The notes below the pieces were generated by a model, which worked only from the letters and a program-made list of their open reading frames with translations, was not told where the DNA came from and did not search any database. Below, piece after piece: positions 16,850 to 34,752 of a stretch of DNA of 64,000 nucleotides. Positions within the stretch are counted from its first letter, which is position 1, and each line of letters starts with the position of its first letter. Source of the stretch: Shimia sp. Alg240-R146 (GTDB lineage Bacteria; Pseudomonadota; Alphaproteobacteria; Rhodobacterales; Rhodobacteraceae); assembly GCF_947331465.1 (NCBI RefSeq), contig NZ_CAMZOK010000003.1, forward strand, positions 62,001 through 126,000, read 5' to 3'. Made by a program: the position numbers and the translations under genes.

Positions 16850-16860
16850 TGACAGCAATA

Positions 16861-16888: not shown

Positions 16889-16891
16889 TTG

Positions 16892-18604
16892 TTAAATGAT
16901 TTCGTCCTTGAGACCCTCAGTGGACAACCCTTCAAGCTTGGGCATCAAACTCAGAAGTTCTCGCGTGTAAGCCTCTTTCGGATTTGCAAACAGTTCTTCC
17001 GTCTCGGCCACCTCTACCATCTGACCCTGACGCATCACGCCAACGCGGTCACACATCTGGCGGACAACCGGCAAGTCGTGGCTGATGAACAGCATCGTCA
17101 GGCCCAAATGCTCTTGCAGATCCTTCAGGATATTCAGGATTTGCGCTTGAATAGACACATCCAGGGCCGACGTCGGCTCATCACAAATCAGGAACCGAGG
17201 CTGCGTCGCCAAAGCCCGCGCAATCGAGATCCGCTGACGTTGACCGCCTGAGAACTCGTGCGGGTATTTGCGCCCGGCTTCGGACCCCAACCCAACACGA
17301 TCCAGCAATTCATCCACACGGTGCTGAATGGCGGCGCCTTCCAACAACTTGTGGTGCTTTACCGGCTCGGCAATGATCTCATCCACCCGCATACGCGGGT
17401 TCAGGCTCGAATAAGGATCCTGAAAAATCATCTGGATTTGACGGCGATAGCCTTCAAGATCGCGATTGCTGCTCAACGCAGTCACCTCGGTTTCATCAAA
17501 GGTAATCTTGCCGCCGTTGGTTTCGTAAAGCGTGGCAATCATGCGAGCTACGGTCGACTTGCCTGACCCACTTTCACCAACAACCCCAAAAACCTCGCCA
17601 TCGCGGATATCAAAGCTGACGTTGTCCACTGCTTTGAAATACTTGCGGCGCGACGGGATCAAGGCACCTTTCTGCAAGAAGGTTTTGGTCAGGTTTTCAA
17701 CCTTGAGCAACGTGCCGGATTTGGACGGCTCTGGCTTTTGCCAATTGCGCGCCAGATCATCGATGTGGAACTCGATAGACCGCCCGCCATATGACAGCTG
17801 AGGGAAGCGATGTACCTTTAACGTCGGGCGCGGCACGGCCGCAATCAGCGACTTGGTATAGTCATGCTGCGGATTGCCCATCACCTGCTCAGTCGCGCCG
17901 CTTTCAACGACGGCGCCCTGATACATCACCGTCACTTTGTCGGTGGTATCGGCAATCACACCCATGTCGTGGGTGATCAGGATGACACCGGTCTGCCGCT
18001 CCCGCGCGAGCTCCTTGATCAACTCAAGGATCTGCGCCTGAATGGACACATCAAGCGCCGTTGTCGGCTCGTCCGCAATGATCACATCGGGTTCAGAGCA
18101 CAGCGCCAAGGCGATCACCACGCGCTGCCGCATCCCACCGGAAAATTGGTGCGGATACATGTCGATACGCTCTTCTGGAAGCGGAATGCCAACGCGGTCC
18201 AAAAGCTCAACCGCACGCTTGCGGCTGTCACCTTCGGACAGTTTCAGGTGGAACTGTATGGTTTCAATCAACTGCTGACCAACGGTCAGCAACGGATTCA
18301 GCGACGTCAGCGGGTCCTGAAAGATCATAGATATCTTGGCACCACGCAACGACCGCATGGCTTCAGCATCCCGACCGCTGATAGCTTCTCCCTTAAAGCT
18401 GACTGTGCCGCCCGCGATATGACCGGGACGATCCAGCAGGCCCATGACCGCCGCGCCGATGGTTGATTTACCGGCCCCGGATTCGCCCACAAGCCCGTGA
18501 ATTTCACCCGGTTCAACCGTCAGGTCCGCTTCGTTGACTGCCACAAACACCTTGTGACGGGTCGGAAAATGGACCGACAGGTCTTCAATTGTAAGAAGAG
18601 TCAT
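16892..18604 (-). CDS. ABC transporter ATPase with two nucleotide-binding domains (oligopeptide/nickel type)
   Basis: A 570-residue fusion of two DppD/DppF-like ATPases. The first domain has GESGAGKST, LDRVGIPLPEER and FSGGMRQRVVIALAL; the second has GESGSGKST (about residue 350) and FSGGQRQRISIARAL, each followed by a Walker B (IIADEPTTALD; LICDEPTSALD). Such fusions power family-5 peptide-type importers, which also carry opines, oligosaccharides and glycosides. It is last in a cluster with two binding proteins and two permeases and starts by TAATG overlap with the preceding permease. From context the cargo may be a sulfosugar. Confidence 0.92.
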   Translation of the reverse strand: MTLLTIEDLSVHFPTRHKVFVAVNEADLTVEPGEIHGLVGESGAGKSTIGAAVMGLLDRPGHIAGGTVSFKGEAISGRDAEAMRSLRGAKISMIFQDPLTSLNPLLTVGQQLIETIQFHLKLSEGDSRKRAVELLDRVGIPLPEERIDMYPHQFSGGMRQRVVIALALCSEPDVIIADEPTTALDVSIQAQILELIKELARERQTGVILITHDMGVIADTTDKVTVMYQGAVVESGATEQVMGNPQHDYTKSLIAAVPRPTLKVHRFPQLSYGGRSIEFHIDDLARNWQKPEPSKSGTLLKVENLTKTFLQKGALIPSRRKYFKAVDNVSFDIRDGEVFGVVGESGSGKSTVARMIATLYETNGGKITFDETEVTALSSNRDLEGYRRQIQMIFQDPYSSLNPRMRVDEIIAEPVKHHKLLEGAAIQHRVDELLDRVGLGSEAGRKYPHEFSGGQRQRISIARALATQPRFLICDEPTSALDVSIQAQILNILKDLQEHLGLTMLFISHDLPVVRQMCDRVGVMRQGQMVEVAETEELFANPKEAYTRELLSLMPKLEGLSTEGLKDEII

Positions 18605-19548
18605 TACTGCAACCTCGGATTCAGTGCGTCGCGCAGCCAGTCACCCAGCAAGTTCACCGACAATGCCAGTGACAGAAGGGTGATCGACGGGAACAGGATG
18701 ATCCACCACTCACCGGAGAACAAAAAGCCCTGCCCGATACGGATCAACGTGCCCAACGACGGTTGGGTTGGTGGCGCACCCACACCAAGGAACGACAGCG
18801 TCGCCTCGGCGATGATTGCCAACGCCAGAGAAATCGTCGCGATCACAAGAACCGGCGACAGCACGTTGGGCAGAATGTGGCGCAGCATGATGATGCCTTT
18901 GCCGCGGCCAATCATACGTGCGGCTTGCACATACTCTTTGTCCTTTTCCACAAGTGTCGCACCGCGCACAACGCGGGCAAACTGCACCCAGTCAGACAGA
19001 CCGATGGCAAGGATCAACACCCAGATCGCCATCTTGTCTTGATGCTCAATCGGAGTGATGCCTTTGGCGACCCCGAAAATCAGCATCGCGACCAGAATGG
19101 CAGGAAAGGTCAACTGCACGTCGGCCGCCCGCATGATGATGGTTTCGATCCAGCCACCGACGTAGCCGGCGATCAGACCAAGCGTAATGCCCAGCACCAT
19201 CGCGAAAAGAACCGCTGAGAAACCCACGAAAAGAGAGATGCGCATGCCATAGAGGATGGTCGAGAACACGTCGCGTCCTTGATCATCTGTGCCAAGCCAG
19301 AACACATCACCTGTAAACTCGTTCGCCGCCATAGGCGCCGTAAACCCGTTCATCAGGTTCAAAGAGGCCGGGTCAAACGGGTTATGTGGTGCAATCAACG
19401 GCGCAAAAACGGCGCTCAGAACCAAAAGTGCCACCACCAATGCCGACACAACAGCAACCGGAGTTCGACGGAATTTATAGGCAAAGTCGCTATCCCAAGC
19501 GCGGGCAAACATGGATTTTGGGGCAGATTGAGAGGTTTGGTCGGACAT
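18604..19548 (-). CDS. ABC transporter permease (DppC family)
   Basis: A 314-residue inner-membrane permease with the N-terminal extension and six membrane segments of the DppC family. The ATPase-contact loop reads ARMIGRGKGIIMLRHILPNV, and GTDDQGRDVFSTILYGMR is the typical family opening. The ATG at 19548 overlaps the stop of the partner permease (TGATG), so the two are made together as the heterodimeric channel. Confidence 0.9.
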   Translation of the reverse strand: MSDQTSQSAPKSMFARAWDSDFAYKFRRTPVAVVSALVVALLVLSAVFAPLIAPHNPFDPASLNLMNGFTAPMAANEFTGDVFWLGTDDQGRDVFSTILYGMRISLFVGFSAVLFAMVLGITLGLIAGYVGGWIETIIMRAADVQLTFPAILVAMLIFGVAKGITPIEHQDKMAIWVLILAIGLSDWVQFARVVRGATLVEKDKEYVQAARMIGRGKGIIMLRHILPNVLSPVLVIATISLALAIIAEATLSFLGVGAPPTQPSLGTLIRIGQGFLFSGEWWIILFPSITLLSLALSVNLLGDWLRDALNPRLQ

Positions 19549-20528
19549 CACTTCGCCCCCTTCTGGTCAACGCGCAAGCGCGGGTCGATGGCAAAATACA
19601 ACAGGTCAACGATCAGGTTGATGCCAACAAACATCACTGAAATCAGCATCAGATAGGCGGCCATCACAGGGATGTCGACAAACTGGATCGCGTTGATGAA
19701 CAACAGGCCAACACCGGGCCATTGAAACACGGTCTCGGTGATGATCGCGAAGGCAATGATCGACCCGAGCTGAAGTCCCGTCACAGTGATCACCGGAACC
19801 AACGTGTTCTTTAACGCATGGCGGAAATTCACTGACCGCTCTTTCAAGCCGCGCGCGCGGGCAAACCGGATGTAATCCTGACGTAGAACTTCGAGCATTT
19901 CAGACCGCACCAGCCGCATAATCAGCGTCATTTGGTAAAGCCCGAGTGTAATCGCCGGAAGGATTAGCGCCTTGAGACCGCTTGCGGTCAAAAAGCCAGT
20001 GCTCCACCAGCCTATGTGCACCACGTCTCCCCTGCCAAAGGACGGAAGCCATCCTAACTCCACTGCGAACAAGTAGATTAAAAGGATACCTATGAGGAAG
20101 GTGGGCAGCGAGACCCCGATCAACGAGACCGACATGATCATATTGGCCATAAATCCGTCGCGTCGGATCGCGGTAAACACGCCAAGCCCAATCCCGATCG
20201 TAATGGCAAAAAACCCGCTCACAGCGGCCAGTTCCAGAGTTGCGGGTGCACGTTCCACCAGAATGGTCGACACCGGACGCCCCTGACGATAGCTGACGCC
20301 AAAGTTACCTTCGGCAGCGCCTTTCAGGAATTTCACGTATTGAACCGGAAACGGTTGATCCAAACCAAGTTCGGTGCGCAGTCGCGCGATGTCCGCATCT
20401 GTGCGTTCCTGACCCAACATATTGTCGATCGGATCGCCCACAAAACGGAACATGCTGAAGGCGACAAGCCCCACGATCAGCAAGACCAACGCAGATTGGA
20501 AGACTCTGCGAACAACAAAAGTCAGCAT
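19548..20528 (-). CDS. ABC transporter permease (DppB family)
   Basis: A 326-residue permease with six membrane segments and the DppB-type start (MLTFVVRRVFQSALVLLIVG). The coupling loop is IRFARARGLKERSVNFRHAL. It follows the second binding-protein gene after about 100 bases containing a long hairpin, and it overlaps the DppC-type gene. Confidence 0.9.
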   Translation of the reverse strand: MLTFVVRRVFQSALVLLIVGLVAFSMFRFVGDPIDNMLGQERTDADIARLRTELGLDQPFPVQYVKFLKGAAEGNFGVSYRQGRPVSTILVERAPATLELAAVSGFFAITIGIGLGVFTAIRRDGFMANMIMSVSLIGVSLPTFLIGILLIYLFAVELGWLPSFGRGDVVHIGWWSTGFLTASGLKALILPAITLGLYQMTLIMRLVRSEMLEVLRQDYIRFARARGLKERSVNFRHALKNTLVPVITVTGLQLGSIIAFAIITETVFQWPGVGLLFINAIQFVDIPVMAAYLMLISVMFVGINLIVDLLYFAIDPRLRVDQKGAK

Positions 20529-20546
20529 TTTTTGCCCCTCTTTTTA

Positions 20547-20588
20547 GGCGGTCTCCCTTGATGCCTTTGCAGACAAAGGTCAACCGCC
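20547..20588 (-). other. Intercistronic hairpin between binding-protein and permease genes
   Basis: Nested pairing GGCGG...CCGCC, TTGA...TCAA and CCTTTG-CAGA-CAAAGG forms a long interrupted stem in the gap between the binding-protein and DppB genes. It probably protects the binding-protein message or reduces read-through. Confidence 0.45.
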
Positions 20589-20634
20589 CCCATGCATTAC
20601 GGGCACAGATTTTTAGGAAATTTTCCGTAACACT

Positions 20635-22200
20635 TTAGTTAACGCTCACCCACCGAAGGATGAAGAAGTTGTCAGGGCGTTGAGTTAGCGAGATATTCTG
20701 GCCGGTACCCCAAACAAGCGGCTGTACATACATCGGAACATAAGCCGTTTCGTCCTGCATGATTTGAGCGGCTTCGTCCAACATGGCCTGACGTTTTGTG
20801 GCGTCGATCTCGGACTGGATCATTGGCAGCAACGCGTCGATTCTGGCGTTGGAGTACCCTGCAAAATTCCAGCTGCCCAACTTCTTTTCTTTGTTGGGGG
20901 TCGACGCCAGAAAACGAATTGGGTGCTCTGCATCAAATGTGCCCGGCGACCAACCCAACAGGTACATGTCGTAGTTGTCCGCCCGCAATTCAGGCCAGTA
21001 GTTCTGCACCGGCATCGCATCAAGCTGTGCCATCATTCCGACTTGTGCCAACATCGACGTCACGGCCTGACAAACCGCCTCGTCGTTCAAATAGCGGTTA
21101 TTTGGACACTTCAGGCCAAAGCTGAACCCATCAGGATACCCGGCCTCTGCCAAAAGCGCCTTTGCTTTGGCTTGGTCAAACGCTGGACGGTCCGCATTGG
21201 CGTTGGAATAGCCACGCATCGCAGGGCTCACCAACTGGCTCGCCGGCTCGGCATTGCCTCGCATGATGGTCTTCAGAATAGCAGGAACATTGACCGCGTG
21301 CGAAACTGCGGCACGCACGCGCGCGTCTTTGAACGGGTTTGGCTTGCCTTCGTCATCGCCGTATTTCAACACGTCGCTTTCCTGTGCCATGCCAAGCATG
21401 ATCACGCGCGCCTCGATGCCGCGAATGACTTGCACATCGCCTGATCCCGCCAGACGCTCTGCGTCCTGGATCGGCACAGGGTTGATCATGTCCACATCCC
21501 CAGACAAGAGCGCCGCCACGGCCGTTGCGGGGTTTTGAACGGGTGTGAATTCGGCGCGGGTGATGTTGTGTTCCACCTCACCCCACCATCCGGTGTGCGG
21601 CACCAATTCCGTACGCAAGCCCGGCTCGCGTTCAGACACCATGAAGGCGCCGGTGCCGTTGGCGTTCAGCGTCGCATAATTCCCGTTCTCCTTGTCCGGA
21701 AGCGCAGCTTCGTTGGCCTCAGCCCAACCTTTGTCCACCATCATCCAATTGGCGATGCTGTCAGGAAAAATCGGGTTCGGCGCTTTGGTCAGGATGTCCA
21801 CTGTGTAGGCATCTACCACCTTGACGTCCGACACTGGCGAGAACCAGCTGCGGGTGTCAGACACCTCGTTGGAGGCGCGCTGATAGGAAAACAGCACATC
21901 TTCGGCGTCAAAGCTGCTGCCATCGTGGAACGTCACCCCTTCACGCAGGATAAACCGCCAGCCCTCGCCATTCCCAATCGGTTCCCAGCTGGTCGCCAAC
22001 GCAGGTTCAATCGACATATCCTTGCCGCGGCGCACAAGCCCTTCATAGACATTGTTCAAAAAGCCCAGAACCGGGGCAGAGTTGACCGCATGCGGGTCCA
22101 TAGTTTGCGGATCGGTTGTACCAGCCCACTTAAACTCTTCGGCCAAAACCGGGCCGCCCAAAGCGGAAGCCACCGCCAAAATACTCAAAGCGCGTTTCAT
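20635..22200 (-). CDS. ABC transporter substrate-binding protein, family 5 (DppA-like), copy 1
   Basis: A 521-residue secreted binding protein with a signal peptide (MKRALSILAVASALGGPVLA) and the family-5 hallmarks DPQTMDPHAVNSAPVLGFL and REGVTFHDGSSFDAEDV. It is clearly related to the neighbouring binding protein (shared DAVNSAPV/HAQNEGPT-type N-terminus, ANGTGAFMVSEREP versus ANGTGPYVLVSREP, MAQ-D-M-P near the C-terminus), so the two arose by duplication. It likely delivers a glycoside or oligosaccharide rather than peptides, judged only from the catabolic genes beside it. Confidence 0.88.
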   Translation of the reverse strand: MKRALSILAVASALGGPVLAEEFKWAGTTDPQTMDPHAVNSAPVLGFLNNVYEGLVRRGKDMSIEPALATSWEPIGNGEGWRFILREGVTFHDGSSFDAEDVLFSYQRASNEVSDTRSWFSPVSDVKVVDAYTVDILTKAPNPIFPDSIANWMMVDKGWAEANEAALPDKENGNYATLNANGTGAFMVSEREPGLRTELVPHTGWWGEVEHNITRAEFTPVQNPATAVAALLSGDVDMINPVPIQDAERLAGSGDVQVIRGIEARVIMLGMAQESDVLKYGDDEGKPNPFKDARVRAAVSHAVNVPAILKTIMRGNAEPASQLVSPAMRGYSNANADRPAFDQAKAKALLAEAGYPDGFSFGLKCPNNRYLNDEAVCQAVTSMLAQVGMMAQLDAMPVQNYWPELRADNYDMYLLGWSPGTFDAEHPIRFLASTPNKEKKLGSWNFAGYSNARIDALLPMIQSEIDATKRQAMLDEAAQIMQDETAYVPMYVQPLVWGTGQNISLTQRPDNFFILRWVSVN

Positions 22201-22290
22201 ATTTATTCCCCTTAAATTGGGGCGTCGGCGCGGCCCCTGTTCGGCTCGCGCGCGCCCTCTGCCGTTAACCTTCTCACAAAGATCAACGCA

Positions 22291-22330
22291 AAAGCAAAAG
22301 AAAACCCCGCGCCAAGGAACTGGCGCGAGG
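22291..22330 (-). terminator. Terminator/attenuator after the first-transcribed binding-protein gene
   Basis: On the minus strand CGCGCCA / TGGCGCG (22308-22314 with 22321-22327) is extended by two C-G pairs across one mismatch and is followed by GGGGTTTTCTTTTGC. It lies 26 bases past the stop at 22356 and would let the binding protein be made in excess. Confidence 0.6.
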
Positions 22331-22355
22331 TCAAAGATTGCGGCTGCATCACAGA

Positions 22356-23936
22356 TTAGTTCAGTGTGAAATACTTGAACTTTGCGGTGTCGTCAGGCGC
22401 AACAATTGTGTCAACCTTGGACGACATACCCCAGTTCAGCACCTGGTGGTGAATTGGGATATAGAGCTGCTCGTCCTGCACAACAGTCCAGATCTCGTTG
22501 ATCATCATGTTGCGTTTTTCCAGGTCGGTTTCGCTGGCAAGTGCCTCGATTTTCGCATCCAGATCGGTGTCGCTGAAACGTGTGCCATTCCAGGAACCAT
22601 ACTTTTCGCCTTTGGTGTGGGCGAGGAAGTTGAACACATACTCGGAGTCATAAGTGGGAACACCCCAACCCAGCATGTAGAAGTCGGTTTCGAGGTTGTT
22701 GATCAGCGGGAAGTGCTGCGCTTTGGGCTTCGCATCCAGGTTCACTGTTACGCCAATGCGCGCCAACATACCAACCGACGCCTGACAGATCGCTTCATCG
22801 TTGATGTAACGGTCGTTCGGGCAGTTCAACGTGATGGAGAAACCATCTGCAAAGCCTGCCTCAGCCATCAGCGCCTTGGCGCCTTCGACGTCAGTTTTGG
22901 ACGAGCTGTCCATGGCTTCGTTCCAGCCGTTCACGAACGGAGGCGCGATCATGCCAGCAGGAGCTGACTGGCCACGCATCACAACTTTTTGGATGGCAAC
23001 GCGGTCGATTGCCATCGACATCGCCTGACGCACGCGCACGTCCGACATCGGGTTGATGCCGTCCACGTTGTCACCTGCGATGTCTTCTGCGGCTTGGTTC
23101 ATGCCAAAGAAAATCACACGGTTCTGAGGTGCGGTACGCACTTCCAGACCGTCGGTGCCTGCAACACGACCCAAATCCTGAACCGGAACGTCTTGAATGA
23201 AATCAACTTCGCCAGACAACATCGCTGCAACGCGGGTCGCGGCGTTCTGGATCGGGGTATAGATCACTTCGGTGACTTCCATCGGGAACTCGTCTTTGCC
23301 CCAATAGTTGTCGTTGATTTTCATGACGGTCTTCACGTCGGGCTCGCGGCTGACCAGAACATATGGGCCGGTACCGTTTGCGTTTTTGGCCGCAAACGTG
23401 TCTTCGCCGCCTTCATAGTCCTGAACTTTGACCGCGCCATTGGCCTCTGCCCAACCTTTGTCCATGATGAACATGTTGGTCAGGTTGTTGGCCATGATCG
23501 GGTTCGGACCGTTGGTCTCAATCTCGATGGTGTATTTGCCGGTTGCGCGAACTTCTTTCACGGATGCCAGCAGTTCCTTGTAGTCGGAATCTTCGGTCAT
23601 CGCGCGGTCGAGGCTGAATTTCACGTCTTCGCTGTCAAATTCGGCACCATCGTGGAAGGTCACGCCTTCGCGCAGTGTGAATTCCCAAACGTTGGGGTTG
23701 TCAGCAGACGGGCCCCAGTCGGTGGCGAGCGCAGGCACCATGGCACCGGTCATATCGCGCATTACCAGCGGCTCCATGATCTGATGCGCGAGGGCCGATG
23801 TTGGGCCTTCGTTTTGTGCGTGTGGATCAAGTGTCAGCGCGTCACCCGCACGCGCCCAGCGCAGCGTCTCGGCTTGCGCCATCATTGGCATCGCCATCAG
23901 AGCGGCGGTTGCCAGAAGTGTGGACTTAAATGTCAC
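22356..23936 (-). CDS. ABC transporter substrate-binding protein, family 5 (DppA-like), copy 2
   Basis: A 526-residue secreted binding protein. I place the start at a GTG (23936), preceded by GGGGAG at 8 bases, which gives a clean signal peptide (MTFKSTLLATAALMAM to AQA); the longer frame to 23993 has no ribosome site and a charged leader. Family-5 motifs: DALTLDPHAQNEGPTSALAH and LREGVTFHDGAEF. It is the first gene of the importer set, behind a terminator and a 16-base palindrome. Two binding proteins for one permease pair suggest two related ligands, for example a free sugar and its glycoside. Confidence 0.88.
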   Translation of the reverse strand: MTFKSTLLATAALMAMPMMAQAETLRWARAGDALTLDPHAQNEGPTSALAHQIMEPLVMRDMTGAMVPALATDWGPSADNPNVWEFTLREGVTFHDGAEFDSEDVKFSLDRAMTEDSDYKELLASVKEVRATGKYTIEIETNGPNPIMANNLTNMFIMDKGWAEANGAVKVQDYEGGEDTFAAKNANGTGPYVLVSREPDVKTVMKINDNYWGKDEFPMEVTEVIYTPIQNAATRVAAMLSGEVDFIQDVPVQDLGRVAGTDGLEVRTAPQNRVIFFGMNQAAEDIAGDNVDGINPMSDVRVRQAMSMAIDRVAIQKVVMRGQSAPAGMIAPPFVNGWNEAMDSSSKTDVEGAKALMAEAGFADGFSITLNCPNDRYINDEAICQASVGMLARIGVTVNLDAKPKAQHFPLINNLETDFYMLGWGVPTYDSEYVFNFLAHTKGEKYGSWNGTRFSDTDLDAKIEALASETDLEKRNMMINEIWTVVQDEQLYIPIHHQVLNWGMSSKVDTIVAPDDTAKFKYFTLN

Positions 23937-24007
23937 GTTAAGTACTCCCCTACTTTTGTGATTGTGGCGGGATGATCCACGGACTGCGCGCAATTGACAA
24001 GCCCCTT

Positions 24008-24023
24008 CTGAACAATTGTTCAG
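24008..24023. promoter_or_regulatory. Perfect 16-base palindrome before the importer genes
   Basis: CTGAACAATTGTTCAG is perfectly self-complementary and lies about 70 bases upstream of the binding-protein start, on the promoter side of a terminator. It is a likely operator. I see no second copy in the window; its regulator is unknown. Confidence 0.5.
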
Positions 24024-24069
24024 GTCTTCTTACGGAAACCACCTCAAGATGTTGAATTCAAATAACAAA

Positions 24070-24093
24070 GGGCGCGCCACAACGGACGCGCCC
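24070..24093 (-). terminator. Terminator after the decarboxylase subunits
   Basis: GGGCGCG / CGCGCCC, with inner CC/GG pairing, 24 bases after the stop at 24117. The minus strand continues TTTGTTATTTG; the plus strand continues AAGGTTTTTT. It divides the catabolic genes from the importer genes. Confidence 0.65.
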
Positions 24094-24116
24094 AAGGTTT
24101 TTTCTGTGTCAAAAGG

Positions 24117-24671
24117 TTAACGCCGCACTTCTTCCATAAACCGCTCGCGGATCACGATCGGGTTGGTTTTGATGACCGGAACCTTAACGTTTCCGCTTTC
24201 GCATTTGGAGACGATGATTGTCATCTGATCCGAAGCAATCGCGTCCTCAACAGCTTTTGCGGTGTCCTCGGCAGAAACCGTCAAAACGGTCTCCGCGCCG
24301 CAAGCTTTGGCCACAGCCGCCAGATCGGTGTTCATACCGGCATAGGTCGGCTGATCACCGGTTGAGCCATATGACCCGTTGTCGATGATCAGGAGTGTAA
24401 AGTTGCCTTGGGCGTTGTTGCCAATCGTCGCCAGCGTCCCAAGGTTGGTCAGAACCGACCCGTCGCCATCAATCGCAATGACAGGTTTGTCCTGTGCTGC
24501 CGCCAGCCCAAGACCGATTGAAGAAGCCAGCCCCATCGTGCCCAGCATGTAAAAGTTGGACGCGCGATCATCCAGCGCATGCAGCTCTTGGCTTGGTGCG
24601 CCGATATTACAGACCACAAGGTGCTCGCTGATCAATGGAATCAGGGTTTTGAATACGTCGTTGCGGATCAT
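24117..24671 (-). CDS. comE: Sulfopyruvate decarboxylase-type enzyme, beta subunit (ThDP-binding)
   Basis: A 184-residue protein corresponding to the C-terminal ThDP-binding half of 2-oxoacid decarboxylases. The cofactor motif runs from GDGSVLTNLGTLATIGNN to NGSYGSTG. As a separate subunit next to an alpha partner it matches ComDE sulfopyruvate decarboxylase, which converts 3-sulfopyruvate to sulfoacetaldehyde and CO2; phosphonopyruvate decarboxylase is the near alternative. Its ATG overlaps the alpha stop (ATGA). Upstream genes for a hydroxyacid dehydrogenase and aldehyde dehydrogenase favour the C3-sulfonate reading over phosphonates, as no phosphonate gene is present. Confidence 0.8.
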   Translation of the reverse strand: MIRNDVFKTLIPLISEHLVVCNIGAPSQELHALDDRASNFYMLGTMGLASSIGLGLAAAQDKPVIAIDGDGSVLTNLGTLATIGNNAQGNFTLLIIDNGSYGSTGDQPTYAGMNTDLAAVAKACGAETVLTVSAEDTAKAVEDAIASDQMTIIVSKCESGNVKVPVIKTNPIVIRERFMEEVRR

Positions 24672-25174: not shown

Positions 25175-25194
25175 GTTTCCTCCCATTTCCTTCC

Positions 25195-27560: not shown

Positions 27561-28573
27561 GTCTCACCCTTTGAAAAGACGAATTTCGTATGTTGTTTGT
27601 ATAACTCCCCAGGCTGCAAAACGGCCTGCGGGAAATGTGAATGGTGATGCGCATCAGGCCAAATCTGCGGCTCCATCGCGAGCCCCGCGAAGCGCCCCAT
27701 CGGCTTGCCATCAAGCCCACCCACATCAATGTCGATATTGGCCCCGTCGTAAACTTGCAAGCCGGGCTCGGTGGTGTGGCACGTCATGCGCACTCCTGAT
27801 TTCGCGCTGTGCAGCTCTGCAACTGGACGCAAAGCTGTACGCGCATCTGAAACGCAGAAATTGTGATCCACGTCATGAGCCTGCGCCACAGGCGCGGCCT
27901 CGCGGAAATCGAAACCGGTGCCCGCGACATCGCGCTGCTCTCCCGTCGGGATCAAGCCGACATCCACCGGCAAAAAGGTTTGGGCACCAATCTGCAACAT
28001 GTGCTCAGATATTGTCGCCGCATCATCCAGCGTGAAATAGCTGTGGTGCGCCATTGAGCAAATCGTCGTCTTGTCGGTCTCTGCATGCATCTGAATATCC
28101 AGAACACCACCCTCCAACAGCGCAAAAGTCACGCGCGCAGACAGTGTGCCGGGAAACCCCATGTGCCCGTCTTCCAGAGTGATCTTCAACGTAACGCGAT
28201 CTGGCAAGACCTCGTCGATCTCCCAAAGACGTTTGCCCATGCTGTCGGCCCCACCGTGCAGCGTATGCTGCCCGATAAAGTTCTGATCCAACTGGTAAGT
28301 TTCGCCATTCAACTCCAGATGGCCGTCGCGCACACGATTGGCAAACCGTCCTGCCGTGGCACCGAAATAAGGCGATTTGGTCAGATAGGGTGCGAACTCG
28401 GGAAACCCCAAAACCAGCGGCGCGCCGTGGCCAGCAAGACGCAAATCCTGCAGCACCGCACCGTAGGTCATGACATGCGCAATCAGCCCGCCGCCCTCAA
28501 GACGCACCCGTTCAACGGTTGCGCCATCAGGCATCCGCCCCCAGTTTTCGATCTGTGCGGTATTTGTTGTCAT
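27557..28573 (-). CDS. Aldose 1-epimerase (galactose mutarotase family)
   Basis: A 338-residue mutarotase. The catalytic pair of histidines is visible in QHTLHGGADSMGKRLWE (about residue 100) and MAHHSYFTLD (about 172), the Glu base in the C-terminal half, and the Asp in ANIDIDVGG. The ATG at 28573 overlaps the preceding oxidoreductase stop (ATGA); the longer frame to 28636 lies inside that gene. Such enzymes interconvert alpha and beta anomers of a free sugar, and a homologue (YihR) serves sulfoquinovose in E. coli. It fits a role just after glycoside cleavage. Confidence 0.88.
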   Translation of the reverse strand: MTTNTAQIENWGRMPDGATVERVRLEGGGLIAHVMTYGAVLQDLRLAGHGAPLVLGFPEFAPYLTKSPYFGATAGRFANRVRDGHLELNGETYQLDQNFIGQHTLHGGADSMGKRLWEIDEVLPDRVTLKITLEDGHMGFPGTLSARVTFALLEGGVLDIQMHAETDKTTICSMAHHSYFTLDDAATISEHMLQIGAQTFLPVDVGLIPTGEQRDVAGTGFDFREAAPVAQAHDVDHNFCVSDARTALRPVAELHSAKSGVRMTCHTTEPGLQVYDGANIDIDVGGLDGKPMGRFAGLAMEPQIWPDAHHHSHFPQAVLQPGELYKQHTKFVFSKGET

Positions 28574-29655
28574 AGCGTGATGGCCTGGCCCGTGCGGGCG
28601 CTCTCTTCGGCTGCTTCTCCGACACGCACCGACCAAAGCCCATCTTCAAGACTGACTTCCGGCGTGCCTGATCCTGCGCGCACAAGATCACGGAACCGTT
28701 CGTGTTGAAAGAAGGTCGAGCCGTGGTGATCGCCTGCGGCCAGCACCTTTTCGTCTACATCAACCTCTTCGCACACCACTTCTTTGCTGTCTCGGTGGCT
28801 GATCTCGATCTCTGAATGACGCTCTTTTTTGTCGGCTGTGAAACGCGCTGGACCGGGCACCTTTGCTTCTACCCGCGCTTTTTCACCAGTGACCGCAATG
28901 GTTTCCTGCCAATAAGAGCCTTCGGCGAACATGCACAAATCCAACATGCCACGCGCGCCGTTGGCAAATTCTACCGTGACATAAGCATTGTCCAAGATGT
29001 CCGGCGTCTGGCCATTATATGCCTCGTCCAAATGGTTCACATCCACGCCTGCACTGGCGTAAACCCGAACCGGATCGCTTTGCAGCGTCAGACGCATCAA
29101 GTCCCAGAAGTGGCAACATTTTTCGACCAATGTGCCGCCCGTGCGCACGTTAAACCGGTTCCAATCGCCAACCTTTTCCAGAAACGGAAAGCGGTGCTCG
29201 CGGATTGCCATCATGCGCGGGGTGCCAACGATGCCATCTCGCAGCTCCTTCAGCATTCGCTGAACCGGCGGCATATACCGATATTCCATCGCCACCCAAA
29301 CCGGCGCTGCACGGCCTTCGGCTTTGGCCAAGACTTCGGAACAATGTGCCGACGTGGTGCACAGCGGCTTTTCCACCAAGATCGGCAACGGCGCATCCAA
29401 CACATCCAGCAAAATCTTGTGGTGCGTGTCGTTTGGCGCCGCGATTAACAGCGCATCCACCAGCCCTGACCCGATCATTTCTTTGTAGTCGCCAAACGCC
29501 TGTGCCGTGCCGCCCGACGTCTGCATCGACAACTGCCGCATACCTTCGTCCGGATCACTCACTGCCGTCACTTCGCACCCCTCAAGCAAGTTCAGGTTGC
29601 GAATATGCTCCTGCCCCATCATGCCAGAGCCGATCAGGCCATATCGAATTGTCAT
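28570..29655 (-). CDS. Gfo/Idh/MocA-family protein, possible NAD-dependent glycosidase or dehydrogenase
   Basis: A 361-residue protein with the dinucleotide motif YGLIGSGMMGQEH and the family EKP motif (LVEKPLCTTSAHC, near residue 93), then a substrate domain with GTLVEKCCHFWDLMRL. The start at 29655, behind GGAGAT, follows the isomerase stop by one base. Members of this family include ordinary sugar dehydrogenases and NAD-dependent glycosidases; one such group (GH188, SqgA) has been described as sulfoquinovosidase. With mutarotase, isomerase, kinase and aldolase genes beside it and no GH31 enzyme in the window, the glycosidase role is attractive but unproven. Confidence 0.82.
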   Translation of the reverse strand: MTIRYGLIGSGMMGQEHIRNLNLLEGCEVTAVSDPDEGMRQLSMQTSGGTAQAFGDYKEMIGSGLVDALLIAAPNDTHHKILLDVLDAPLPILVEKPLCTTSAHCSEVLAKAEGRAAPVWVAMEYRYMPPVQRMLKELRDGIVGTPRMMAIREHRFPFLEKVGDWNRFNVRTGGTLVEKCCHFWDLMRLTLQSDPVRVYASAGVDVNHLDEAYNGQTPDILDNAYVTVEFANGARGMLDLCMFAEGSYWQETIAVTGEKARVEAKVPGPARFTADKKERHSEIEISHRDSKEVVCEEVDVDEKVLAAGDHHGSTFFQHERFRDLVRAGSGTPEVSLEDGLWSVRVGEAAEESARTGQAITL

Positions 29656-29656
29656 T

Positions 29657-31039
29657 TCATATCTCCAAAAGCGGCAGGCCCATCGCGCCAGCCGCGCCGC
29701 GCAACGCTGCGCGATGATCTCCGTAAGCCAGCGCCATGTGATGTTCCAGCCCGCTTGCAATGATGTCGCCAAGCACCTCGTCCGCGCCGCGATCAAACCG
29801 CAAAACGCCAGAGGTGCCGGTGAAACTCATTGGCCGCTTCAACATCTCGGCACGGCTCAGCACCATATGCGGCCGCCCGTGCGCCTGAGAAATTCGCATC
29901 AACGTGACCTCACCCGCCTTCAGCGGGAACTGGTACAACAGCGGCTGTTTGCGGTTGGTGTGAATGGTCGCCTCGGCCGTCACATCGGGATCAATCATCG
30001 ACAAGGGCGCTTGGCCGCAATGCCAAACAACACCTGTGTTGTCCGTGCCGTCCATGTCCACCAGATCGGTCAGAAACACAGGCGCATCCGCTGCCGCTAT
30101 CAACACCATCTGCGTCAGCGCGCCATAGACATCGGCCTCGCACGCGCAAGGCACCCGCGCCTCACCCATCATCGCGGCGGGTCCACACACCGCACCGCCA
30201 TATTCGGTAAAAGTCTCCGGCCAACAACGAATGGCAAAGGCGCTATAGCCGCCCTTTTCTTTCAACGTATCCAGCCCGACTTTCAGCCGCAAAGACCGAT
30301 CCAGCTCGTCTGGGTCAACCTCATCCAAACCGCTCAACTCTGCATCTGCCTGCTTTCGCAAAGCCGCTGCCGCGTCGGCAGGCGCAGCGCGGGCCAGATC
30401 AAACAGATCCTCCAACGCCAATTCGTCCACCTCGACACCGGAAAGCGCCTTCATGTCCGCCTTGTCATAGGCGCAGGTATCAAACCCCACCGGATGCTCG
30501 CCAATCCGCGCGATCCGTTGACCGTTCACAGCTTCGGCAATCGCGCGTCCGGCCTCTGTCGCCTCGGGCACATCCCCCAACGCCAGCTTGCCTGCCGCGC
30601 GCGCGCCCGTCAGCAAGGCGGCCAAATCGCCCGCCACATTCCCCGCAGGGTCGGCGTAAATCCAACCAAAATCGCGCCCGTTCAAGCCCAACGCATGTGA
30701 CGCCAAGTTCAATCCGCAAAAGGAATTCAGCCGCAAACGGTCGCCAAGCCGTGGCTCGGGAATGGACCAGATCGACAAAGGCACATCAAAGGCCGCTCCA
30801 ATCGCCACTGTCATGGACGCATCCGTGAATGTAACTTGCAGCACCATCACCTGATCCACGCCAGCCGATACCAGCGCCTCAATTCCCGCCCGTGTCGCAG
30901 CTTCGTCAAACAACAATTCACGCGGGCCGACGATTTCATGGCCGGTGGCGTCCAACGCAGCCAACATGGCCGCGAGGTTCTCCTCGGCAAACGGAACGTC
31001 AAACGTCGGACGCCCCAAAGGAAGAATGCCTAGTTTCAT
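29657..31039 (-). CDS. L-fucose/L-arabinose isomerase family protein
   Basis: A 460-residue ketol-isomerase-type protein. The family C-terminal region is clear: AIRCWPETF, GGAVCGPAAMMGE, CACEADVYGALTQMVL (metal-binding Glu/Asp), then LTDLVDMDG and VVWHCGQAP. The ATG at 31039 replaces an upstream TTG. The family interconverts aldoses and ketoses. In a kinase-aldolase operon it should supply the ketose that PfkB phosphorylates. If the pathway handles sulfoquinovose it would be the sulfoquinovose isomerase, replacing the unrelated YihS of E. coli; otherwise a deoxy-hexose isomerase. Confidence 0.83.
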   Translation of the reverse strand: MKLGILPLGRPTFDVPFAEENLAAMLAALDATGHEIVGPRELLFDEAATRAGIEALVSAGVDQVMVLQVTFTDASMTVAIGAAFDVPLSIWSIPEPRLGDRLRLNSFCGLNLASHALGLNGRDFGWIYADPAGNVAGDLAALLTGARAAGKLALGDVPEATEAGRAIAEAVNGQRIARIGEHPVGFDTCAYDKADMKALSGVEVDELALEDLFDLARAAPADAAAALRKQADAELSGLDEVDPDELDRSLRLKVGLDTLKEKGGYSAFAIRCWPETFTEYGGAVCGPAAMMGEARVPCACEADVYGALTQMVLIAAADAPVFLTDLVDMDGTDNTGVVWHCGQAPLSMIDPDVTAEATIHTNRKQPLLYQFPLKAGEVTLMRISQAHGRPHMVLSRAEMLKRPMSFTGTSGVLRFDRGADEVLGDIIASGLEHHMALAYGDHRAALRGAAGAMGLPLLEI

Positions 31040-31049
31040 ACCCAAATCC

Positions 31050-32078
31050 TCAGATGTCGGAATAGTTCAGCCGGAACGTTGCATCATCTGCCATCAAACG
31101 CGCGCCGCCTTCCCCATAACACACATGTTTGGCCCAGTTCGACGCGTTCGCGTCCGCCAGCGCCGAAATGTCTTTCATGTAATCCACGGCGTCGCCTTCA
31201 AGCCCCGCCCGGATCGCATCCCAATCAGGATAGGCGTTGAACGCATCCAGCCAAATCGCACGCCCCGCAAGGAAACCCGACGCGCCTGCCTTAAATGCGT
31301 GATCCAGCACATTGCGGAATTCGGCCTTGCCAGCGCCGGCCGACAACATCACCCAAGGACGCCCCGCCAGACGGCCCATCTCGTCAAACACGGCCTGCAC
31401 CTCGGCGCTGCCATCCGCGTCAGCAGCATTCACCGGGCTTTCCAGCTTGAACACATCCACGCCATACTCGGGTTTGGCAAATTCTTCGACCGACTTCAAA
31501 ACGTCGTCGGCTTTCTTGCCCTTCATTTCGACGTATTCTTTGGTCTGATGCGCATCTGCTGCCAGCGGATAGACCAGCAATTCAAACAGGAACGGAATGT
31601 CGTATTTCGCGCAATCCTCACCGATCTGTTTGACGTAATCCTTTTGCGCCTGATTGACCTCGTCACTGGCATCAGGACGATACCACGCAAGCACTTTGAC
31701 CGCGTCGCCGCCCATACGTTTGATCTTGGCCACCGACCAATTGTCGATGCTCGCGGACAAGCGCCCACCCGGTGTTTCCTGAAACAGGCTGTCTTCCAGC
31801 GTCACCACCAAACCTTTGTGCGGGATTAGCGTGTCAAAGGAATAGGGGATGGCATAATGCGGGTCGAGCAACATCGCCGTCGAATGCCCCTGAAGCGTTT
31901 CAACCAGCATCCCTTTGAACTTCGCGACCTGCTCCCAAGGAGCCTGATCCACACCCAGATGTTTGGCAATCGGGCCTTTGATCGGCGGGCGCTGGTCCAC
32001 GGCTGTCATCTTATAGATACCGTTTGCATCAGCCATGCGGCGCATACCGGCCAGCTTGCCGGGTGTCAGGGTGATCAT
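31050..32078 (-). CDS. Class I aldolase of the tagatose-1,6-bisphosphate (LacD) family
   Basis: A 342-residue LacD/YihT-type aldolase. The Schiff-base Lys is likely that in VDVFKLESPVN (about residue 211); other family segments are TAVDQRPP near the start, GGDAVKVLAWYRPD and WVMLSAGAG. The family cleaves ketose phosphates to dihydroxyacetone phosphate plus an aldehyde; YihT and SqiA-type members are not all related, but YihT (sulfofructose-1-phosphate aldolase) is of this group. ATG 32078 overlaps the kinase stop (TGATG). The aldehyde made would go to the aldehyde dehydrogenase encoded downstream. Confidence 0.88.
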   Translation of the reverse strand: MITLTPGKLAGMRRMADANGIYKMTAVDQRPPIKGPIAKHLGVDQAPWEQVAKFKGMLVETLQGHSTAMLLDPHYAIPYSFDTLIPHKGLVVTLEDSLFQETPGGRLSASIDNWSVAKIKRMGGDAVKVLAWYRPDASDEVNQAQKDYVKQIGEDCAKYDIPFLFELLVYPLAADAHQTKEYVEMKGKKADDVLKSVEEFAKPEYGVDVFKLESPVNAADADGSAEVQAVFDEMGRLAGRPWVMLSAGAGKAEFRNVLDHAFKAGASGFLAGRAIWLDAFNAYPDWDAIRAGLEGDAVDYMKDISALADANASNWAKHVCYGEGGARLMADDATFRLNYSDI

Positions 32079-32962
32079 CACGTCGTCTCCTTCAGGAATT
32101 CAGTCAGCGCGGCGCGGCTCGGTGCTCCGGCCCGCCCGCCTTTTGTCAAACATTTCAGTGCCGCCGCGCCGTTGGCGTGGCGAATTGCTTCTTTTGCGCT
32201 CTGTCCTTCTGCAAGCAGCAACGCGAAAACTCCGTGCCAGACGTCACCTGCGCCCAGCGTGTCGATTGGGGTGATGGCAAAGGCTGCCATATGGTGCGTT
32301 TGTCCAGCATCCGTATACCAAACACCGTCGGCCCCGTCGGTCACACAGACCCAACAATCGTGCTTGGCTGCAATGTCCAGCAACGCCTCTTCGACGTCGG
32401 TATCTGGATACAGATCACGCAAACCCTGCATCGACAGCGCCACATGGCTGGCCGCCGACATCAACGCCGGATCAATCGGCGCCTCGCCATCCAGGACCCC
32501 GGGAATGCCGCGCGCGCTTGCCAACTGCAAAGCCGCCAAAGCCGCATCCACACGCCGCGTGTCTGTGAGGACCGCGCCGACGTCTTCCAATCCGTCAAAC
32601 CAATCCGTTGCCAAGACCAAGCCCGCACCGCGAAAGTTCACGATCTGACGCTCACCTGCTGCATCAATCAACACTGATGAATAGCTGCTTTTGGCGCCTT
32701 TGGTTCGGGTCACATTGGACACATCCACGGCTTCGCGGGCCAAATCTTCAACGATCATATCGCCAATGCTGTCGTCGCCCAGCCGTGCGCCCAAAACCGC
32801 CGTACCGCCAAGACGCGCCACAGCCACCGCCGCATTGGCAGCACAACCACCGCCAACGACATGCGCTTCTTCAGTGCCGTATTTCTCAGGCCGGTTTGGC
32901 AAGGTCTCAAGGTGAAAGACAAAGTCGACCACCGCCGCGCCGACACACAAAATTTTGCTCAT
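32078..32962 (-). CDS. PfkB-family carbohydrate kinase
   Basis: A 294-residue ribokinase-like sugar kinase: substrate-side motif VVGGGCAANAAVAVARLGG and the catalytic anion-hole motif DTLGAGDVWHG (Asp base near residue 238). PfkB kinases phosphorylate the 1-position of ketose (phosphates); YihV, the sulfofructose kinase, is of this family. The gene is joined by overlaps to the upstream peroxidase gene (ATGA) and downstream aldolase gene (TGATG), so kinase and aldolase act in succession. Confidence 0.9.
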   Translation of the reverse strand: MSKILCVGAAVVDFVFHLETLPNRPEKYGTEEAHVVGGGCAANAAVAVARLGGTAVLGARLGDDSIGDMIVEDLAREAVDVSNVTRTKGAKSSYSSVLIDAAGERQIVNFRGAGLVLATDWFDGLEDVGAVLTDTRRVDAALAALQLASARGIPGVLDGEAPIDPALMSAASHVALSMQGLRDLYPDTDVEEALLDIAAKHDCWVCVTDGADGVWYTDAGQTHHMAAFAITPIDTLGAGDVWHGVFALLLAEGQSAKEAIRHANGAAALKCLTKGGRAGAPSRAALTEFLKETT

Positions 32963-34278
32963 TTTGGCACCTCCAAACCGCTTGGCACCTTCTCGGGGAT
33001 GCCCAAACGCCCCTTGATCGACTCTGTTCCCGTCAATGCATGCAGAAACGCCACCACCTGTGACACTTCGCGATCCGTCAACTCAATGGTGTCGATATCC
33101 GCCCGCGCCGAAAGTCTTTCTCGCTCGCGTGCGTCCTGAAACGCCAAAAAGTCCGCCTTCGCCAACCATGGCACCTCTGGCAATACCGCGTGATCCGCGC
33201 TCCACGCCTCAAAACCCGCACGCGGGTTCAGGTGATGGCGCACCATCGCCTCCAGATCGGCATAGGCACCATTGTGGCCGTATGGCGCGGTCAAAGCCAC
33301 GTTGCGCAGCGCAGGCGTGCGAAACTTGTAAGCATCCTCCAGCCTGTCGCTCGCGCCCATCCGGCCCACGTCGCGAACAATCGGATCCCACTGCCGCGTT
33401 TTGCCGGGGCCAAAATGAGGCAACATCAACGCATGAAACTTTTGATCACTCATCAACTGGCCGGAATGACAACTGCTGCACTCTGCTTTGCCATAAAACA
33501 GGTCCATCCCAGCCTTCTGATCCGCATTAAGCGCCGTCTGGTCGCCGTTCAAATAGGCATCAAACGGGCTGTCAAAGCTGGTGAATTCTTGGGTTTCAAA
33601 CGCCGCCAGTGCATTGGCGATATGGGTGATATCGATATCCAGCGCCTGATCCACATCGTCAAAGGCCGCCACAAACATATCGGCGTATTCGGGGATCACC
33701 CGCACGCGCTTGGCCACGATGGGCCACACATTGTCGATCCGGTCATAGACCGCACCTGCGATCTGGTTTTCCTTTGGATTGCCCGCCATCTCAAATTCGG
33801 CAGTCATAGGAAACAACGCCTGCGCCGCAAGGATCGAATCCAACCCCTCGGGCAGCCATTCCTGTGCGGGGCTGTCAAAGCCGTTGTCATAAATACGCGA
33901 TACCGACAGTCTACCGTCGTGAAACAGCACGTCGATTTCACGCGCGCCAAGGTTCCACAACGCAGGTGCGTTGCGCGGGATGCGCTTAACAATTTTCGCC
34001 GCCCCCTGCCCTGGCGTCCGGTCGCGCCCGAGCCCCTCGCCACCTTCGCCAATCCCAAGGCTCAGCCCGTCGCCGGACCCAAGTTCGGGGTGGTGACAGG
34101 TGGCACAGGCGATGTTGCGATTGCCCGACAGGATAGGATCAAAAAACAGCAGCTGGCCGATCTTGGCCTGATCCGCGTCAAAGGCGACAAAATCAGCCTC
34201 TTGCAATGGCGTTGGAAGCGGGCTCCCATACGCGGGCGCGCACGCGATTGCGCCAAGAATGACGACAAGGGACGACAG
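32959..34278 (-). CDS. MauG-type dihaem cytochrome c peroxidase, start disturbed
   Basis: About 440 residues with two c-type haem sites, NIACATCHH and ECSSCHSGQL, and the family phrases LGAREIDVLFHDGRLS and PYGHNGAYADLE. It is a periplasmic dihaem peroxidase/MauG relative; such enzymes reduce peroxide or oxidise protein side chains. The frame has no ATG, GTG or TTG before the hydrophobic leader; I mark the CTG at 34278. In another frame an ATG (34289-34287) starts MRFICRPL, and one extra base in the G-run at 34269-34271 would join it to VVILGAIACAPAYG, a good signal peptide. Either an assembly error or a real frameshift. Its stop overlaps the kinase start (ATGA). Its link to sugar use is unexplained. 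Confidence 0.75.
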   Translation of the reverse strand: MSSLVVILGAIACAPAYGSPLPTPLQEADFVAFDADQAKIGQLLFFDPILSGNRNIACATCHHPELGSGDGLSLGIGEGGEGLGRDRTPGQGAAKIVKRIPRNAPALWNLGAREIDVLFHDGRLSVSRIYDNGFDSPAQEWLPEGLDSILAAQALFPMTAEFEMAGNPKENQIAGAVYDRIDNVWPIVAKRVRVIPEYADMFVAAFDDVDQALDIDITHIANALAAFETQEFTSFDSPFDAYLNGDQTALNADQKAGMDLFYGKAECSSCHSGQLMSDQKFHALMLPHFGPGKTRQWDPIVRDVGRMGASDRLEDAYKFRTPALRNVALTAPYGHNGAYADLEAMVRHHLNPRAGFEAWSADHAVLPEVPWLAKADFLAFQDARERERLSARADIDTIELTDREVSQVVAFLHALTGTESIKGRLGIPEKVPSGLEVPK

Positions 34279-34752
34279 ATGAAACGCATTGTTTTTGCAG
34301 CACTTTTGGCCACTGCCAGCCCGGTGTTTGCCGAGATTGAAACCGGCCGCGACTTGATGGACGCGAAACGCTTTGATGAGGCGATGGCTGAACTGCTGCC
34401 AGCCGCCCGCAGCGGCAACGCCGAGGCCGAAGAATTGATCGGCGTGATGTACGCCTTGGGGCTGGGCGTCGAACGCGACGACGTGCGTGCATTTGAGTGG
34501 TACCTGCGCGCCTCGCTCAAGGGTCACGCGGGCGCTCAAAGCGGCATCGGTTGGTACTACGAGGTGGGCCGTGGCATGCCTGCACCCGATCTCATCCGCG
34601 CGTACATGTGGTACACGCTGTCCGCTATCGGAGGCGATCCGGATGCGGCCATTTCCCTTGAGGAAGTGGTGAAAAAGATGACGCAGGCGCAAATCGACAA
34701 AGCCCATACTCTGGTGGATGACTACCGCGAATGGCTTTATCCATTCCGGTGA
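34279..34752 (+). CDS. Secreted Sel1-repeat protein
   Basis: A 157-residue protein with signal peptide (MKRIVFAALLATASPVFA) and Sel1/TPR-like helical repeats (AEELIGVMYALGLGVERDD; AQSGIGWYYEVGRGM; AYMWYTLSAIGGD). Such repeats mediate protein contacts, here in the periplasm. AAGGG lies 7 bases before the ATG. It is the true gene inside a much longer plus-strand frame beginning at 33190, most of which is the antisense of the peroxidase. Its 5' end meets or overlaps the 5' end of the divergent peroxidase gene, so each promoter must lie inside the other gene. Confidence 0.8.
   Translation: MKRIVFAALLATASPVFAEIETGRDLMDAKRFDEAMAELLPAARSGNAEAEELIGVMYALGLGVERDDVRAFEWYLRASLKGHAGAQSGIGWYYEVGRGMPAPDLIRAYMWYTLSAIGGDPDAAISLEEVVKKMTQAQIDKAHTLVDDYREWLYPFR

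Follow-up and report, generated by a model that had tools for sequence, protein, structure and literature searches.

The 64,000-nucleotide stretch of DNA considered here (the window: positions 62,001 to 126,000 of contig NZ_CAMZOK010000003.1 of Shimia sp. Alg240-R146, whose genome comprises 4.19 Mb) carries on its minus strand, from 38880 down to 24117, a gene cluster that begins with deoR, ends with comE, and probably provides for the uptake and complete breakdown of the plant and algal sulfosugar sulfoquinovose (SQ) or its glycosides. The enzyme part of the cluster consists of nine genes accounting for eight enzyme functions. Its conservation was followed through relatives of the isomerase, the best 80 of 253 found, a set of loci biased towards near relatives; 55 of these extend at least 8 kb to each side of the isomerase gene and are referred to below as wide loci, genes lying farther away being out of view. 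(Numbers beginning with L or G denote our own loci and genomes; papers are cited by PMC number.) The features are, from the first gene of the cluster onward:

38104..38880, minus strand: DeoR-family regulator (PF00455/PF08220), first gene of the cluster; a match lies near the cluster in 38/55 wide loci.
37410..37994, minus strand: small membrane subunit DctQ of a tripartite ATP-independent periplasmic (TRAP) transporter (PF04290); 46/55 wide loci.
35914..37413, minus strand: TRAP large membrane subunit DctM (PF06808; TIGR00786 above cut-off); 47/55 wide loci.
34820..35878, minus strand: TRAP solute-binding protein DctP (PF03480); 47/55 wide loci.
32959..34707, minus strand: MauG/CCP-like di-haem protein (PF03150), start uncertain; 44/55 wide loci.
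32078..32962, minus strand: YihV-like PfkB protein (PF00294; 7ag6, 169.4 bits), predicted sulfofructose kinase.
31050..32081 (start perhaps 32078), minus strand: class I aldolase of the LacD/DeoC family (PF01791), predicted sulfofructose-1-phosphate aldolase.
29657..31045 (start perhaps 31039), minus strand: predicted SqvD-like SQ isomerase of AraA/FucI fold (NF048012 and PF02952, both below cut-off).
28570..29655 (longer open reading frame to 29796), minus strand: Gfo/Idh protein, predicted GH188-type NAD-dependent sulfoquinovosidase (matches 8zn9, 8qc3, 8qc2).
27557..28573 (longer open reading frame to 28636), minus strand: aldose-1-epimerase (PF01263), likely SQ mutarotase; 30/55 wide loci.
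26112..27560, minus strand: GabD/SlaB-type aldehyde dehydrogenase (TIGR01780, 642 bits, cut-off 646), likely sulfolactaldehyde dehydrogenase; 28/55 wide loci.
25195..26112 (longer open reading frame to 26130), minus strand: SlcC-like 2-hydroxyacid dehydrogenase (PF02826), predicted (S)-sulfolactate dehydrogenase; 41/55 wide loci.
24668..25174 (longer open reading frame to 25186), minus strand: ComD, sulfopyruvate decarboxylase alpha subunit (TIGR03845, 159.9 bits, cut-off 147.95).
24117..24671, minus strand: ComE, sulfopyruvate decarboxylase beta subunit (TIGR03846, 232.6 bits, cut-off 221.5).
24070..24093, minus strand: terminator-like hairpin 3' of comE, nine pairs, eight of them G-C, with a T-rich tail.
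16892..23993, minus strand: peptide/nickel-type ATP-binding cassette (ABC) importer, with SBP5 solute-binding proteins at 22356-23993 (SBP1) and 20635-22200 (SBP2), and permeases and a fused ATPase at 16892-20528.

From the kinase gene to comE, neighbours overlap by at most 4 bases or are separated by at most 20 (with starts as chosen). A preliminary description, made from the letters of this DNA, had recognized in 16892-34289 a single run of mostly overlapping genes and proposed an SQ pathway with a built-in ABC importer. Profile matches and open reading frame coordinates find the kinds of gene that it named on the minus strand where it placed them, and its overlapping run holds from the kinase to comE; the ABC genes are set apart, with 123 bases and the hairpin (24093-24070) between comE and the first of them. 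The MauG-like gene, which lies partly within that range, went unmentioned, and the TRAP and deoR genes upstream of it were missed. (A technical note: the hairpin is a hint only, because terminator-like sites are no commoner in the scan as a whole, 20 against 23.3 expected from shuffles, than chance allows.) The order of the genes is not accidental, since it is kept in named relatives from other genera. Co-transcription of the cluster and its control by the DeoR protein may be supposed; CsqR/YihW, the regulator of the E. coli variant of SQ breakdown by an Embden-Meyerhof-Parnas-like route (sulfo-EMP), is also of the DeoR family. The search for an inverted-repeat operator near deoR yielded a single, unconvincing pair of 18-base arms, 78% complementary and 278 bases apart.

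The Gfo/Idh protein, which the preliminary description recorded and left without a role, has as its matches among solved structures 8zn9 (417 bits), 8qc3 (404) and 8qc2 (392); the next Gfo/Idh structures reach 74 bits at most. 8qc2 and 8qc3 are FlSqgA and ArSqgA, solved enzymes of family GH188 (PMC10755693), and the published GH188 residues are Arg166, Leu170 and Lys172 for the sulfonate site and Lys107, Tyr136, Glu189, His193 and His321 for the active site. In the mapping made here, in which the numbering of the window's protein is the published numbering plus 36, the corresponding residues R202, L206 and K208, and K143, Y172, E225, H229 and H357, are kept in all 69 aligned rows (the window protein and 68 homologues from the 80 named loci, 12 of which gave no row). 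There is no second copy in the genome, the next matches standing at 29% identity. Its evident kinship in sequence with ArSqgA and FlSqgA, together with the presence of both sets of residues, suggests an NAD-dependent sulfoquinovosidase of family GH188; the probable entry substrate is then a glycoside of SQ, for instance sulfoquinovosyl glycerol. The gene occurs in 50 of the 55 wide loci, and the kinase and aldolase genes in 51 and 50.

The kinase finds its best solved match in 7ag6, the sulfofructose kinase YihV (169.4 bits), and 2rbc, an unassigned sugar kinase, is practically level with it (168.1). What sets the window protein apart is its agreement with the sulfonate-binding residues of YihV, Lys27, Asn109 and Arg138: they align with K27, N109 and R136, kept in 72/72, 65/72 and 72/72 rows, respectively. 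None of the six other PfkB paralogues in the genome has all three of these residues, and 2rbc has the Lys and the Arg and a Pro at the Asn position (alignment read by eye). Ala or Ser occupies the Asn109 position in the operon kinases of L094, L100, L105, L116, L122, L127 and L133.

The aldolase is best matched by 8tnf (331 bits), followed by LacD (148) and by YihT (59.5), the last score placing it outside the YihT subfamily; the NCBIfam model PRK12858, tagatose 1,6-diphosphate aldolase, recognizes it with 340 bits (cut-off 184). A literature search for the code 8tnf led to five papers with titles on other subjects. The aldolase is judged to be of class I because lysine 212, presumably with the role that it has in LacD, is kept in 71/71 rows. 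The isomerase has one NCBIfam match only, the SQ isomerase model NF048012 (SqvD/SftI), at 241.5 bits against a cut-off of 700; PF02952 scores 24.9 against 29.3, and by sequence the PDB offers a single chance match (E 0.73). Its AlphaFold model (mean predicted local distance difference test score, pLDDT, 89) resembles arabinose isomerases and, to a smaller degree, fucose isomerases (E values of 4e-23 to 3e-12). A template-modelling (TM) score of about 0.57 places it within the AraA/FucI superfamily and not as a close relative. E303, D327, H435 and H436, which by analogy with FucI would be the Glu/Asp/His metal ligands, are invariant in 18/18 sequences. Fold and residues together are FucI/AraA-like, and the enzyme may work like SqvD. 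Its nearest named relatives are in three Shimia genomes (88-89% identity). The preliminary description's reading of the locus as a sulfosugar pathway, with SQ the likely sugar, is supported by the YihV match and by the isomerase's sole NCBIfam match.

What follows in the cluster is concerned with C3 sulfonates. The aldehyde dehydrogenase lies just below the TIGR01780 cut-off (642 against 646 bits), and to the eye its sequence seems to retain RlGabD's Arg/Arg, Trp-Asn-Phe and Cys positions, although the same Arg pair has been published for human succinate-semialdehyde dehydrogenase. The SlcC-like protein belongs to the 2-hydroxyacid dehydrogenase family (TIGR01327, 268 bits, cut-off 454), its nearest solved relatives are phosphoglycerate dehydrogenases, and no sulfolactate model figures among its NCBIfam matches. 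ComD and ComE, the products of adjacent genes, both exceed their curated cut-offs, in keeping with the previously proposed chain through sulfopyruvate to a C2 sulfonate. ComE of the window is the only match in the genome at E 1e-40 or better, and the same search of 14 control genomes produced matches only in M. jannaschii and M. acetivorans, both of them archaea.

SQ-derived sulfolactaldehyde has the S configuration, its stereocentre coming from C5 of the sugar (PMC12421959), and SlcC is an S-sulfolactate dehydrogenase (PMC11131964); on those premises SlcC and ComDE would lead directly to sulfoacetaldehyde. In Roseovarius nubinhibens, conversion of sulfolactate by way of sulfopyruvate and sulfoacetaldehyde to the Xsc reaction has been reported (PMC6278857). 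The chain need not end at the C2 sulfonate in the window's host either, since xsc and a pta-like gene, which it had been proposed to look for, are both in the genome. Xsc is encoded at a separate locus (TIGR03457, 907 bits, cut-off 676; 0/14 controls pass); the adjoining Pta-like gene has matches below cut-off (229 against 311 and 246 against 310 bits), and visual inspection suggests that another neighbour encodes a regulator of the MocR type. It may be supposed that Xsc serves this pathway and not solely the use of taurine or other C2 sulfonates.

How general is the combination? The isomerase has matches in 25 of 198 genomes of the family, 18 of them (the window's own included) at 46% identity or more and seven at 29% or less. 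Among the 18, eight have ComE only, eight SuyB only, one (G197) both and one (G171) neither; all nine ComE carriers have Xsc, as do 5/9 of those that lack ComE. ComDE follows directly behind SlcC in 6/18 genomes (own included) and is encoded elsewhere in three. The wide loci contain ComE in 14/55 cases, SuyB in 9/55, and both together in none. Named strains with the ComDE form are Shimia haliotis DSM 28453 (L055, whose gene order is that of the window), Aliiruegeria lutimaris DSM 25294, Tropicimonas sediminicola DSM 29339 and Actibacterium pelagium JN33. Across the 198 genomes Xsc occurs in 124, ComE in 48 (46 over cut-off) and both in 44, for which the Fisher p of 7e-7 is an overstatement, because genomes of one family are related; the 44 were counted by eye. 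On a quick tree of the isomerases (66 of 81 rows labelled) the link to ComDE changes 10 times, at least seven of them by well-supported branches, and is nevertheless more clustered than in 500/500 shuffles; the changes and the clustering taken together indicate that the tail behaves as an exchangeable yet inherited module.

The name SuyB may be given to the alternative enzyme on the strength of PF04295/PF20629, of SuyA-like and ComC-like neighbours, and of the sulfonate setting. (At E 1e-20 or better it matches a single NCBIfam model, that of galactarate dehydratase, 138 bits with a cut-off of 731; its ComC-like neighbour scores 177 bits with the L-sulfolactate dehydrogenase model, cut-off 500.) A 95-96-residue open reading frame lies just upstream of SuyB in L137, L138 and L144; no SuyA-like frame was found beside SuyB in L048, and none is listed in L143. 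L048, a locus of the SuyB type, has beside its sulfosugar genes, at 15619-17853, an aldehyde:ferredoxin-oxidoreductase-like gene whose product might oxidise sulfolactaldehyde where a GabD-type enzyme is missing. The Silicimonas/Boseongicola loci (L059, L061, L062, L065, L069, L070, L075) keep the kinase, isomerase, aldehyde dehydrogenase and SlcC; class I aldolase and GH188 are absent from the available stretch, which in some is short on one side, and another aldolase may serve.

The importer that travels with the SQ core is the TRAP system, with DctP in 47/55 wide loci, and DctP likely binds the sulfosugar or its glycoside. The ABC importer was considered as a part of the pathway and rejected: SBP1 has a match in 3/55 wide loci (L055, L056, L057; 3/14 when the count is confined to loci with at least 2.9 kb beyond comE), all from near Shimia relatives, SBP2 has one in 1/55, a count limited by where loci end, and neither has a match in the stretches of 17 other relatives. 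The ABC importer therefore does not qualify as the built-in importer of the preliminary description and probably stands outside the conserved pathway.

A MauG/CCP-like gene is kept beside the TRAP importer in the SQ clusters of many marine Alphaproteobacteria. The protein has two CXXCH motifs in 52/52 aligned rows. (Its start is uncertain: no residue before 184 is near-invariant, a hydrophobic stretch lies near residue 145, and codons 121-160 include no ATG, GTG or TTG.) The gene is always accompanied by DctP (44/44 wide loci), and TRAP and MauG-like genes are inverted jointly in L082, L087 and L101; for these two reasons they look like one unit. A DctP residue that depends on the MauG-like protein was also sought. 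The idea found no support: 52 DctP rows with and six without a MauG match differ in four columns, conservative or mixed, and no tryptophan discriminates between them.

From gene content and order, their conservation, the family relations and the key residues, we infer the following substrates, activities, import step and link to Xsc. Free SQ or one of its glycosides, probably sulfoquinovosyl glycerol, would enter through the TRAP importer; the GH188 enzyme would release SQ and the mutarotase provide its right form; the SqvD-like isomerase would convert SQ to sulfofructose, the YihV-like kinase would generate sulfofructose 1-phosphate, and the class I aldolase would split it to dihydroxyacetone phosphate and (S)-sulfolactaldehyde. 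The latter would be oxidised by the GabD-type dehydrogenase to (S)-sulfolactate, by SlcC to sulfopyruvate, and be decarboxylated by ComDE to sulfoacetaldehyde and CO2. Xsc, encoded elsewhere, would produce acetyl phosphate and sulfite, and Pta would make acetyl-CoA. Passing straight from SlcC into ComDE would make unnecessary the inversion by SlcC and ComC on which the R-specific SuyAB depends. To this account, uptake and complete breakdown of SQ glycoside or free SQ in one cell, we assign a probability of roughly 0.72.

Several observations weigh against it. The isomerase is far enough under the NF048012 cut-off not to be filed as an SqvD/SftI member, and its structural match is remote (TM about 0.57, with a root-mean-square deviation, as printed, of about 23 Å). 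Seven of 72 kinases lack N109 (six Ala, one Ser), and the aldolase is much closer to LacD-type enzymes and 8tnf than to YihT. The aldehyde dehydrogenase is indistinguishable by sequence from succinate-semialdehyde dehydrogenase, and SlcC is not separable by score from phosphoglycerate dehydrogenase. The aldehyde dehydrogenase and the mutarotase are present in only 28 and 30 of the 55 wide loci, so that elsewhere other enzymes must serve, and 32/55 lack both ComE and SuyB in the vicinity. Xsc is located in another locus and is frequent in the family regardless.

What else could the cluster do? It might act on another sulfohexose, for example sulfofucose (6-sulfo-galactose), by an EMP-like route through sulfotagatose that leaves the later steps unchanged. 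The name of the aldolase subfamily, tagatose 1,6-diphosphate aldolase, and the AraA/FucI fold of the isomerase favour this reading, and proteins of PF00294 and PF01791 were encoded in the cluster of a Paracoccus grown on sulfofucose, for which an EMP-like route was considered; that same work, however, supported an Entner-Doudoroff (ED)-like route and not the EMP-like one (PMC12421959). Other evidence also points to SQ: E225, the residue in contact with the hydroxyl at C4 of SQ, is present in 69/69 rows, the kinase's best solved match is a sulfofructose kinase, and the GH188 enzyme examined in published work cleaves SQ glycosides and not the glucosides or glucuronide tried, sulfofucosides going unmentioned in the text available. 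Another sulfohexose is accordingly an unlikely substrate. Marginally less likely still is a pathway that does take in SQ and stops at sulfolactate or sulfoacetaldehyde, to be excreted or reduced to isethionate, with Xsc reserved for taurine and other C2 sulfonates. The sulfo-EMP organisms so far described do excrete sulfolactate or 2,3-dihydroxypropane-1-sulfonate (DHPS), xsc does lie in a separate locus beside an apparent MocR-type regulator gene (by eye), and 124/198 family genomes have Xsc in any case; yet the placing of SlcC and ComDE after sulfosugar genes makes no sense unless the cell uses the C3 sulfonate, and Xsc accompanies ComE in 9/9 of its carriers among the 18 genomes. That the cluster serves non-sulfonated sugars or sugar acids is very improbable: kinase, aldolase, mutarotase and dehydrogenases do come from broad sugar families, but the sulfonate residues of GH188 and sulfofructose kinase are kept, and 17/18 genomes also have ComDE or SuyAB, enzymes whose very names refer to sulfonates.

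If complete SQ breakdown is indeed what the cluster encodes, its interest lies in the fate of the sulfur. Known degraders of this type usually discard the sulfur-bearing half of the sugar, and the window's cell appears to pass that half on towards sulfite; the presence of both halves of the process within one bacterium was called unusual in 2025 (PMC12421959). Our survey suggests that the two halves often occur together in marine Rhodobacterales and Rhizobiales and that one end can stand in for another, and isomerase, GH188 and comDE together could serve as markers in metagenomes. A wider generalization is tentative and, on balance, doubtful: that sulfoglycolysis in marine Alphaproteobacteria combines an invariant SQ core with a replaceable desulfonation end (ComDE-Xsc or SlcC/ComC-SuyAB), that complete SQ mineralisation within one cell is therefore common among them, and that the conserved TRAP importer needs its MauG-like di-haem partner, which would modify or oxidise something periplasmic.

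Two other regions of the window deserve brief mention. At 7459-15171, again on the minus strand, genes for a class II aldolase, an SBD_N/NBD_C kinase, an Iso_dh protein and a Gfo/Idh protein make up a second cluster linked to a TRAP importer and resembling a C4 sugar-acid (tetronate) pathway. At 2315-6405 an MttB-family trimethylamine methyltransferase-like gene adjoins a DAO/GCV_T dehydrogenase gene, suggesting methylamine or betaine demethylation.

Known systems supply all the parts. ComDE inside an SQ operon appears to be the new element, no description of it having been found in the literature searched, of which some key papers and all figures were beyond reach; a Jannaschia faecimaris cluster in Fig. 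5c of PMC10755693 could, from its legend, be of similar kind. The sulfo-EMP pathway of Arthrobacter sp. AK01 with SqgA (PMC10755693, PMC8873060) has in common with the window cluster GH188, a PfkB sulfofructose kinase, a class I aldolase and a sulfolactaldehyde dehydrogenase. It differs in using YihS in place of an SqvD-like isomerase and in excreting sulfolactate, where the window cluster adds SlcC and ComDE; the TRAP importer and the MauG-like gene are also features of the window cluster and not of AK01. The GH188 'Y160' cluster of Actinobacteria bacterium IMCC26103 (PMC11465081, 2024) shares, as predictions, a fucose isomerase, a kinase, an aldolase, a sulfolactaldehyde dehydrogenase, a gene resembling phosphoglycerate dehydrogenase and an end that removes the sulfonate; its end, however, is a sulfolactate sulfo-lyase instead of ComDE, its transporters are of the ABC type, and its GH188 protein has Tyr at the Leu170 position, which is Leu in the window protein.

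On the side of the C3 sulfonates, the sulfofucose pathway of Paracoccus wurundjeri (PMC12421959) likewise has SlcC and joins sulfosugar breakdown to C3-sulfonate mineralisation in one cell, but is ED-like, acts on another substrate and has the SlcC/ComC-SuyAB end. Roseovarius nubinhibens (PMC6278857) shares the passage from sulfolactate to sulfopyruvate, decarboxylation and Xsc, and Roseobacter DHPS catabolism (PMC11131964) the GabD-type and SlcC steps on C3 sulfonates; these start from sulfolactate or DHPS and not from a sulfosugar. Sulfo-EMP2 (SqvD, SqiK, SqiA; PMC9594981), which the preliminary description thought the cluster might resemble, has a FucI-like isomerase and the intermediates in common with it. 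Membership in that pathway was considered and rejected: the sulfo-EMP2 kinase is PF00365 and its aldolase the class II PF01116, whereas the window has PF00294 and the class I PF01791, and sulfo-EMP2 mostly has SqvB where the window cluster has a GalM-type mutarotase. Mixtures of sulfo-EMP and sulfo-EMP2 parts are already known in other bacteria (PMC9594981, PMC12890257, PMC13372026), and the window cluster, to judge from the families of its proteins, is another such hybrid, followed by SlcC and ComDE.

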